From an uncultured Actinomycetes bacterium (GTDB lineage Bacteria; Actinomycetota; Actinomycetes; Nanopelagicales; Nanopelagicaceae), in the NCBI GenBank assembly GCA_903852585.1, contig CAINRG010000033.1, positions 69,633-116,292 on the forward strand: a DNA stretch of 46,660 nt, read 5' to 3'. Shown here in pieces: positions 30,988-34,205 of this stretch. Below the pieces are notes generated by a model. It was not told the origin of the DNA. It did not search any database and worked only from the letters and a program-made list of their open reading frames with translations. The position numbers were made by a program, and so were the translations under genes. Each line of letters starts with the position of its first letter. The first letter of the stretch is position 1.

Positions 30988-31419
30988 CTAGAAAAGTCCT
31001 GGCAACACCTCCGTTGAAACATCTGCAAAGCCCTTCTCGCGATCTGCAAGATAGGTATTCCATGAGGATGCGTCCCAAATTTCTAAACGAGTATTTGCGC
31101 CGATAACCACGCAATCTTTTTCCAGCGCTGCATACGTGCGTAGGCCGGCAGGAATTGTGATGCGGCCCTGCTTATCTGGAACTTCATCATGAGCGCCAGC
31201 GAACATCACGCGCATGTAATCGCGTGCTGCTTTCTCGGTGACGGGAGCTTGGCGCAGGCGCTCTGTGATGGATGTGAACTCTTTAGAAGGAAAGATGTAT
31301 AGGCAGCGCTCTTGGCCTTTAGTAACGACTAGACCGTTGGAGAGCTCGTCACGGAAGCGGGCAGGAAGGATGATGCGGCCTTTTTCATCGAGTTTTGGTT
31401 CATGCGTACCAAGAAACAT
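30988..31419 (-). CDS. mraZ: Transcriptional regulator MraZ
   Basis: 143 residues, the same length as mycobacterial MraZ. The ATG at 31419 is chosen over an in-frame GTG at 31428 because a GGGGAGG ribosome site (31428-31434) sits 8 nt before the ATG but overlaps the GTG. Two AbrB-like halves are visible: [26 protein letters not shown] and [21 protein letters not shown], each with the KGRI/QGRI and P motif. MraZ binds repeats upstream of its own gene and represses the dcw cluster. Such repeats are seen at 31515-31578. Confidence 0.97.
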
Positions 31420-31514
31420 CTCTGCCACCTCCCCTTTTCTTACCGTTTTCTGCCCTATTCGGAGCGCTCAACGCTTGCTTTGAAGCTCAAATCCCCCGAT
31501 TTTCGCCTCATGCA

Positions 31515-31578
31515 CCACTTTACTCCATTTTACTCCAAAATCAACCACCTTTAACCACAATTCTCCAAACTCCCCCCA
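31515..31578 (-). promoter_or_regulatory. MraZ operator: phased TGG repeats
   Basis: On the minus strand the triplet TGG occurs at exact 10-bp steps: its complement CCA begins at 31515, 31525, 31535, 31545, 31555 and 31565, and a seventh, one base off phase, at 31576. The following bases are AG, TT or TG. Known MraZ sites in E. coli are three TGGGN repeats with 5-nt spacers, so also a 10-bp step. The array lies about 95 bp before the mraZ ATG and just before the divergent ABC-transporter gene, so it may serve both. Confidence 0.8.
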
Positions 31579-31603
31579 TTTCAGCCCCCTTTCCCTCCCC
31601 GGC

Positions 31604-31609
31604 TACTCT
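31604..31609 (+). promoter_or_regulatory. Candidate -10 box of the ABC operon, leaderless start
   Basis: TACTCT ends 7 nt before the GTG at 31617, and no Shine-Dalgarno sequence precedes that GTG. This fits a leaderless transcript. The -35 zone would fall near 31581-31587, right beside the MraZ repeat array. No good -35 hexamer is seen. Confidence 0.4.
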
Positions 31610-31616
31610 GGCCCCC

Positions 31617-32546
31617 GTGCATAAAGAGAGTTTGATTCAGGCAAAAGGGCTCACAAAGCTCTATGGCGACTTCGCGGCGGTGAAAGGGATCGATTTTTCA
31701 GTCCACAAGGGCGAATCCTTCGGATTTCTGGGCCCCAATGGGGCTGGCAAATCAACAACGATGCGCATCATTGCCGCCACGCTAACGAGAACATCCGGTG
31801 AGATTTCCATTCTCGGAAAAGATCCAGCAGAACGTGGTCCTGAAATTCGCGCACACTTAGGAGTAGTCCCTCAGCAAGATAATTTGGATCAAGCGCTCAC
31901 TGTTACTGACAATCTCTATATCTATGGACGTTACTTTGGTTTATCTCGAAAATTTATTCGCGCAAAAATTGAAGAGCTTTTAGATTTTGCTCAACTTGTC
32001 GAAAAGCGCGATGTGAAAGTGGAAACACTCAGCGGTGGCATGAAACGGCGCCTCACTATCGCTCGTGCACTTATCAGTGAACCAGAAATTCTTATGCTTG
32101 ATGAACCCACTACTGGTTTAGATCCGCAAGCTCGCCACATTTTATGGGACAGACTTTTTCGCCTGAAGGAACAAGGTGTCACTCTTCTTATTACAACGCA
32201 CTACATGGATGAAGCTGAACAACTTTGTGATCGATTGATGGTGATGGATAAAGGCTCCATCATGGCAGAGGATTCACCTTCTGGCCTTATTAAAAAATAC
32301 TCTACGAAGGAAGTTCTCGAAGTTCGGTTTGGCTCCGATAAAAATGCAGAGGTATCTCCTCAGCTCTCTACTTTATGCGAAAGAATGGAAGTGCTTCCCG
32401 ATCGTATTTTGATGTATGCCGACGATGCCGAACTTCTTCTTGAAGAGATTCGCAAAAAGGGATTACATCCTGTGACCTCACTCGTACGCCGAAGTTCTCT
32501 CGAAGATGTATTCCTGCGTCTGACAGGCCGGTCCCTCGTTGAGTAA
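31617..32546 (+). CDS. ABC-2 type exporter, ATP-binding subunit
   Basis: 309 residues from the GTG at 31617. The frame stays open to 31395, but that extension crosses the mraZ promoter region and reads as Pro-rich low-complexity sequence, so I reject it. Walker A GPNGAGKST (39-47), signature LSGGMKRRL, Walker B LMLDEPTTGLD and switch TTHYMDEAEQL are intact; a C-terminal regulatory region of about 80 residues follows. The layout resembles DrrA/NodI exporters. Two permease genes follow at once. Substrate unknown: drugs, glycolipids or polysaccharide are all possible. Confidence 0.93.
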   Translation: MHKESLIQAKGLTKLYGDFAAVKGIDFSVHKGESFGFLGPNGAGKSTTMRIIAATLTRTSGEISILGKDPAERGPEIRAHLGVVPQQDNLDQALTVTDNLYIYGRYFGLSRKFIRAKIEELLDFAQLVEKRDVKVETLSGGMKRRLTIARALISEPEILMLDEPTTGLDPQARHILWDRLFRLKEQGVTLLITTHYMDEAEQLCDRLMVMDKGSIMAEDSPSGLIKKYSTKEVLEVRFGSDKNAEVSPQLSTLCERMEVLPDRILMYADDAELLLEEIRKKGLHPVTSLVRRSSLEDVFLRLTGRSLVE

Positions 32547-32553
32547 TACAGGC

Positions 32554-33378
32554 GTGCGCCAAGGATCATTGGCTGTTGTTGATACAGAGCGCGCGATAAA
32601 GCTTGGAACGTTATTCGTTGTTGAGGCACGGCTACGAACCATGCTTCATTGGATTTTCTCTCTTCTGACAGGGTCTTTACTCAATCCATTCTTTTACCTT
32701 GCCTCTCTTGGCATCGGTGTTGGAACTTTCATAAATAGCCGAGCGGGAAGTGGCGGCGTCGACGGCGTGAAATACATAGTTTTTCTCGCTCCAGCACTTC
32801 TTGCATCCGTTGCAATTCAAGACTTTATGGGCGAGGTGACATTCCCTGTTTTGCAGGGATTTAAATGGGAGAAGTTATTTTTTGCCATGAATGCAACGCC
32901 CTTAAGTGGTCGCCAGATTGCCCTAGGAACATATTTCTCTGCGATGCTTCGTACCGTCGGATCGGTCCTCATTTACTTTGCGGTCCTGGTGGGATTCAAG
33001 GCAGTTCATCCAGCCCAGGCTTGGCCGATGATGCTCACCTCTCTTTTTGCAGCTGCGTGCTTTGCCGCAATTATGCTCGCTGCTGCAGCTGCCACTGAAA
33101 ATGATGATCTCTTTCTGAATCTCATGGGGCGTTTGTTAATCATGCCTCTCTTTCTCTTCTCTGGAACTTTTTATCCACTTACCTCCATGCCCATTCCCCT
33201 ACAGGCCATAGGTTGGATCTCCCCGTTATGGCATGCAACTGAAATAGGTCGTTGGGTGAGCTACGGCCATTCGATCCCTGGCACCATGATTGCAATCCAT
33301 TTCATCTATCTCACTGTGCTTCTTGTGGTGGGACTTTTGTGGGCATTCAATCGATTTGAATACAGGTTGAGCAAATGA
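32554..33378 (+). CDS. ABC-2 type exporter, permease subunit 1
   Basis: 274 residues from the GTG at 32554; a TTG at 32539 (8-bp overlap with the ATPase gene) is an equal alternative, and neither has a ribosome site. Six hydrophobic segments are expected. Family features are the N-terminal amphipathic stretch before helix 1, and LFLFSGTFYPLTSMPIPLQAIGWISPLWHATEI near the C-terminus, typical of DrrB/NodJ-type ABC-2 permeases. It overlaps the second permease by 4 bp (ATGA). Confidence 0.9.
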   Translation: MRQGSLAVVDTERAIKLGTLFVVEARLRTMLHWIFSLLTGSLLNPFFYLASLGIGVGTFINSRAGSGGVDGVKYIVFLAPALLASVAIQDFMGEVTFPVLQGFKWEKLFFAMNATPLSGRQIALGTYFSAMLRTVGSVLIYFAVLVGFKAVHPAQAWPMMLTSLFAAACFAAIMLAAAAATENDDLFLNLMGRLLIMPLFLFSGTFYPLTSMPIPLQAIGWISPLWHATEIGRWVSYGHSIPGTMIAIHFIYLTVLLVVGLLWAFNRFEYRLSK

Positions 33379-34205
33379 TCACATCAGCAGCAGTTGCGAT
33401 TGCTGAGGCGCGAATTGGTCGCCTCGGTGAATCTGTATATTCAGGACGCGCCCGAACAATTCTGGAACGTTCCTACTTAGCATTTAGATCTTCTGCGTGG
33501 ATAGTCGTGCTGACAGGTTTTCTTGAACCCGTTCTCTATCTCTTCTCCTTTGGATACGGGGTTGGCAAATTGATTGGAAAGATGGAAGTTGGCCCTGGTC
33601 ACTTTGTTTCCTACGCTGCATTTATCGCCCCAGCACTTCTTGCTACAAGTGCTATGAATGGCGCAATTTACGACGCAACCTGGAATGTATTTTTTAAAAT
33701 GAAATTTGATCGCGTTTATCAAGGAATGCTTGCAACATCCTTAGGACCACTAGATGTAGCACTGGGCGAAATCAGCTGGGCACTTTTGCGAGGCATGGTT
33801 TATGCCATCGCCTTTATGTCCATTGTTGGCGGACTTGGCCTCATCACTACACCTTGGGCACTTCTTGCAATTCCTGTTGCCGTTTTGATTGCCTTTGGAT
33901 TTGCTTCTGTCGGTATGGCAGTAACAACGTATATGAAATCTTTTGAACAGATGAATATCATCAACATTGTTTTGCTGCCGATGTTTCTCTTCTCTGGTTC
34001 TTTCTATCCACTCACTATCTATCCAGGCTGGCTTCAAGGGTTTATCAAGGCACTACCACTTTGGCATGGAATTACTTTGATGCGATCAGTTTCACTGGGG
34101 CTCATAAGCGCCGCACTTCTTCCACACATCGTATATTTTTTAGCGATGATCGCGATCGGGCTTTTCTTTACAACCCGTAGACTCACAAAACTCTTTATGC
34201 GTTAA
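33375..34205 (+). CDS. ABC-2 type exporter, permease subunit 2
   Basis: 276 residues, same family as the preceding gene and likely its heterodimer partner. It shares the motif LFLFSGSFYPLTIYPGWLQGFIKALPLWHGITLMR. The N-terminal 40 residues are cytoplasmic. A heterodimeric pair plus one ATPase makes a complete exporter. The stop codon at 34203-34205 runs into a 12-bp tandem repeat. Substrate cannot be inferred. Confidence 0.9.
   Translation: MITSAAVAIAEARIGRLGESVYSGRARTILERSYLAFRSSAWIVVLTGFLEPVLYLFSFGYGVGKLIGKMEVGPGHFVSYAAFIAPALLATSAMNGAIYDATWNVFFKMKFDRVYQGMLATSLGPLDVALGEISWALLRGMVYAIAFMSIVGGLGLITTPWALLAIPVAVLIAFGFASVGMAVTTYMKSFEQMNIINIVLLPMFLFSGSFYPLTIYPGWLQGFIKALPLWHGITLMRSVSLGLISAALLPHIVYFLAMIAIGLFFTTRRLTKLFMR

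Follow-up and report, generated by a model that had tools for sequence, protein, structure and literature searches.

The six TGG triplets that recur at an exact 10-bp step upstream of mraZ in the window, by which we mean the whole 46,660-nt stretch analysed here, very probably form the MraZ operator of the mraZ/dcw promoter. Judged from sequence comparison, the array and its register with the promoter are found before mraZ throughout the class, and a genus devoid of MraZ no longer has them, which supports the operator reading put forward in an earlier note on this DNA. Arrays of this kind are already known as MraZ operators, and the novelty claimed in that note, the coupling of cell division to a divergent ABC exporter, does not stand. 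What emerges instead is a definition of what an MraZ operator looks like in the sequence of Actinomycetes: phased TGG units held in a fixed promoter register and absent where MraZ is absent.

A phased TGG array interlocked with the predicted mraZ promoter

On the minus strand, the six triplets begin with their T at 31567, 31557, 31547, 31537, 31527 and 31517 (array 31515 to 31567); counted from the final base of the predicted -10 hexamer, they occupy offsets -50 to 0. A seventh TGG (31576 to 31578, T at 31578) lies 11 bp upstream of the sixth and is both off-phase and not conserved. These positions confirm the initial description of six strictly phased repeats followed by one that is a base out of step. 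Such a run is not expected by chance, as the longest exact run in 20,000 dinucleotide-preserving shuffles of the local 192 bp was four and was seen once; with any step from 7 to 14 allowed, the longest run was also four (6 of 5,000 shuffles). The array is the sole TGG run of at least four units within the window, and a promoter-embedded version of the pattern, searched with up to three mismatches in the 1.35-Mb genome, whose named relatives are Nanopelagicales and other freshwater actinobacterial metagenome-assembled genomes, gave a single match, at mraZ. If at least three direct repeats of TGG or GTG type, 10 bp apart and ahead of mraZ, define an MraZ operator, six of them are present here.

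As initially described, the array separates mraZ, read on the minus strand, from a divergent three-gene ABC-2 exporter, read on the plus strand. The mraZ gene (30988 to 31419, minus strand) is followed by rsmH and then ftsL, and its start was set at ATG 31419 and not at GTG 31428 because close relatives have stop codons between the two. The encoded protein gives a full-length match to PF02381 in two stretches corresponding to its two halves (143.8 bits for a cut-off of 23) and a match to TIGR00242 (133.4 for a curated cut-off of 98.35). Its translation displays a DXXXR motif in each half (DEKGR and DKQGR), and it has relatives of solved structure; for the mycoplasma MraZ entries 9qlr, 9qlg and 9sx6 of the PDB, the searches made found no associated paper. 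On the other side of the array, ahead of the exporter start, a G-quadruplex-like motif, GGGGAGGGAAAGGGGGCTGAAATGGGGGG, occupies about 31573 to 31602 (minus strand).

The predicted mraZ/dcw promoter comprises the -35 hexamer TTGATT (31539 to 31544, minus strand), a 16-bp spacer and the -10 hexamer TAAAGT (31517 to 31522, minus strand), the latter being fused to the last TGG unit, with the transcription start itself predicted about 7 nt beyond this hexamer. Array and predicted promoter thus overlap and are interlocked. A scan with consensus -35/-10 elements at strict thresholds returned no sigma-70 site, since the actinobacterial -10 TANNNT and the TTGATT hexamer score under its thresholds.

Conservation in the family and the class

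The upstream alignment through which the earlier note had suggested checking its proposal reveals that the 10-bp phasing is conserved class-wide. It was based on 183 distinct mraZ upstream regions drawn from within the family, both inside and outside the genus, and, for 59 of them, from other families of the class. Anchoring on a -10-like TANNNTGG succeeded for 180 of them (124 from the family and 56 from other families), with anchors chosen to favour phased TGG, so that occupancy of offset 0 is given by construction. An NGG is found at -40, -30, -20, -10 and 0 in 123/124 family sequences, which are related to each other and do not count as independent events. In the other families, the units at -20, -10 and 0 are present in all 56 anchored sequences and NGG extends from -20 to +10 in 49 of them, while -40 and -30 are mostly absent. 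For family and class alike, the reference value at off-phase positions is about 13%. The step itself is specific: runs of at least three TGG at 10 bp occur in 65% of the sequences, versus 0 to 4% for steps of 7, 8, 9, 11, 12 or 13 bp.

The promoter pattern TTGA-N16-TANNNT keeps a fixed register with the array. The -35 hexamers of the family, mostly TTGAAA, begin at -27, 16 bp ahead of the -10 TAAAGT, and the TTG is found at this offset in 97/124 family and 42/56 class sequences; the class consensus is TTGACG or TTGACC. As the units at -20, -10 and 0 are shared by all, the common part of the array sits on the spacer between -35 and -10, and the difference in occupancy between family and class indicates that the array grows by whole helical turns, upstream in the family and downstream in the other families. 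The conserved core amounts to five units in the family (31515 to 31557 on the minus strand of the window, offsets -40 to 0) and to three to five in the class, the middle unit tolerating AGG or GGG. Of the 24 sequences of the genus in which the exporter adjoins mraZ, the window's own is the one with the sixth unit, at -50, and the array stops at five units in its four nearest relatives; on these alignments the sixth unit is private to the window genome. The description of the operator as extended is consequently right in a weak sense only: there are indeed six units here, but the core has five, four have been published for Burkholderia and the sixth is private. Across 101 family genomes, exact five-TGG arrays take the mraZ promoter form once simple 10-bp repeats are set aside, and such a restriction to mraZ fits a regulator that has a single site.

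A genus without MraZ as natural control

In one large-genome genus of the class (L278-L287), none of the ten genomes covered encodes an MraZ scoring above the Pfam cut-off, but rsmH has been kept. Upstream of this gene, a promoter TTGACC-N16-TAAAGT is still readable in 9/10 genomes. Among these nine, the TGG is lost at -20 in 9/9 and at 0 in 8/9, and no phased TGG run above two was found within the 1 kb searched. The retention of the promoter together with the loss of the TGG units separates the constraint exerted on the promoter from that exerted on the operator, and the array thus disappears with MraZ, in a comparison that concerns a single lineage and possibly a single evolutionary event.

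The divergent exporter

The earlier note had proposed that the extended array is shared, so that MraZ would also control the exporter and couple export with division. The operon concerned (31617 to 34205, plus strand) encodes an ATPase (31617 to 32546) and two permeases (32539 to 33378 and 33375 to 34205). It adjoins mraZ in 24 of the 29 sampled genomes of the genus and in one genome of another genus (G051), and its predicted start is about 50 bp from the nearest phased unit and about 39 bp from the off-phase TGG, distances at which contact with the polymerase is feasible. Despite this proximity, we consider a shared operator quite unlikely. The five-unit core is present in the genus with the exporter adjacent (24/24) as well as without it (5/5), and in 93/94 sequences elsewhere in the family, whereas the exporter-side unit, at -50, exists in the window alone among the 24 exporter-bearing sequences. 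Moreover, 19 exporter orthologues located away from mraZ (ATPase 72-83% identical) display no phased array in their available upstream sequence, which is short or missing for two of them (L196 and L198). Finally, an operator serving both transcription units should be retained with the exporter at a constrained spacing, but array and exporter are anywhere from about 60 to 270 bp apart (62 bp in the window). The array is thus independent of the exporter.

The exporter is better regarded as a neighbour with its own predicted promoter, a -10 hexamer TACTCT (31604 to 31609, plus strand) located 7 nt before the GTG at 31617 of a leaderless start. The four nearest relatives likewise present a TANNNT 6-7 nt ahead of the exporter GTG. 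Since the array is close to this promoter in the window genome, MraZ may have an incidental effect on it there. Discarding the shared operator removes an attractive but unsupported link between division and export.

DNA shape and slippage as improbable readings

Another explanation would do without MraZ and attribute the phasing of the TGG triplets to DNA bending, to the composition of the promoter or to a G-quadruplex. The region is G-rich, a G-quadruplex-like motif lies just upstream of the array, and a G-quadruplex has been published for the mraZ promoter region of Staphylococcus aureus (PMC11796246). Yet, the MraZ-free genus has kept the promoter and lost the phased TGG, the G-quadruplex-like motif precedes the array in 30/180 sequences when the array is found in all, and TGG triplets separated by seven variable bases are not a canonical G-quadruplex; we hold this explanation to be very improbable. 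Slippage of a simple 10-bp tandem repeat, of which the array would be a remnant, is hardly credible and already contradicted, because, even if true 10-bp TGG tandem repeats are encountered in the family, among them the eight TGGCAAAACC units close to mraZ in genome G007, the units here differ outside TGG (TGGagaattg, TGGttaaagg, TGGttgattt, TGGagtaaaa, TGGagtaaag), which excludes a plain tandem repeat, the -35 and -10 elements occupy fixed places and the register is held class-wide.

The G007 run (G007:C23:63293-63365, locus L023) sits in the interval from mraZ to the exporter and looks like a longer array. It was rejected as such, being a separate simple repeat unrelated to the promoter.

A model for MraZ action and its relation to known sites

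Returning to the MraZ operator, we propose that one MraZ oligomer, by homology an octamer-type ring able to open, would touch one TGG unit after another along a single face of the helix, occupying major-groove faces that follow each other at one-turn intervals from the -35 through the spacer to the -10. As the units interlock with these three elements, RNA polymerase would have no access once MraZ is bound, and mraZ and the downstream division and cell-wall genes would thereby be held down in a negative autoregulation. We infer all three components of this model, namely binding of the array by MraZ, repression as its effect, and the transcription start. Repression of its own operon is the most likely outcome given the position of the array and the repression known in other bacteria, and five or six contacts would be compatible with an octamer-type ring, the ring being assumed by homology and the octamer taken from published work (PMC7761207). 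Both the number of MraZ subunits engaged and the autorepression model can now be put to a direct test, also in relatives that are in culture and have complete genomes.

In Escherichia coli, the MraZ boxes that Eraso reportedly described in 2014, in a study cited by others, consist of about three TGGGN repeats. The TGG core, the 10-bp step and the autoregulation of mraZ are common to both systems. The E. coli repeats differ in being located downstream of the -10 (PMC7761207). In Burkholderia cenocepacia, electrophoretic mobility shift assays established that MraZ, an octamer, binds four repeats of 7 nt with a 3-nt spacer in the dcw promoter; as in E. coli they lie downstream of the -10, and they cover the start site (PMC7761207). 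The likeness with the present array lies in the short repeats, their 10-nt step and their location in the dcw promoter, but the four repeats of B. cenocepacia are downstream of the -10 whereas the five to six found here extend upstream past the -35. In mollicutes, MraZ binds direct repeats AAAGTG[T/G] according to Fisunov 2016, as cited in PMC8475190, and Mycoplasma genitalium offers a situation with a single MraZ site (PMC8475190). Direct repeats before mraZ and a single genomic site are shared with the window genome, whose last unit, AGTAAAGTGG, contains AAAGTGG; mollicutes are nevertheless a very distant lineage, and in the window bacterium the dcw cluster is complete and comprises cell-wall genes.

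A hairpin at the predicted mRNA 5' end

We tentatively suggest that the dcw operon of this order might be under two controls at its first bases. One would be the MraZ array embedded in the promoter, which would reach further upstream in this actinobacterial order and further downstream in others, in steps of a full turn of the helix. The other would be a covarying hairpin with a GGGG tetraloop, undescribed so far, with which the mRNA would begin. In the window, this hairpin (31481 to 31510, minus strand; predicted 5' end of the mraZ mRNA) was recognised by RNA folding of the window sequence and by covariation on 40 homologues. A run of five or six G within a stem of up to 11 bp is found in 53/124 family sequences, 40 of them distinct, these homologues having been selected by their G run and not by pairing. 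The sequence of the stem varies between genera but mostly remains complementary, with compensatory changes in 10 of 11 pairs. The covariation score reaches 0.694, compared with 0.215 (sd 0.023) for shuffles and at most 0.213 when the alignment is slid, and the mean folding z-score is about -2.7. An Rfam search of the hairpin region returned no match, and the hairpin is possibly an undescribed leader element, a first guess for its function being a 5'-terminal stem that protects the mRNA. Its GGGG loop is invariant across the homologues (loci such as L014-L037, L039-L060, L136, L161, L217, L218 and L231).
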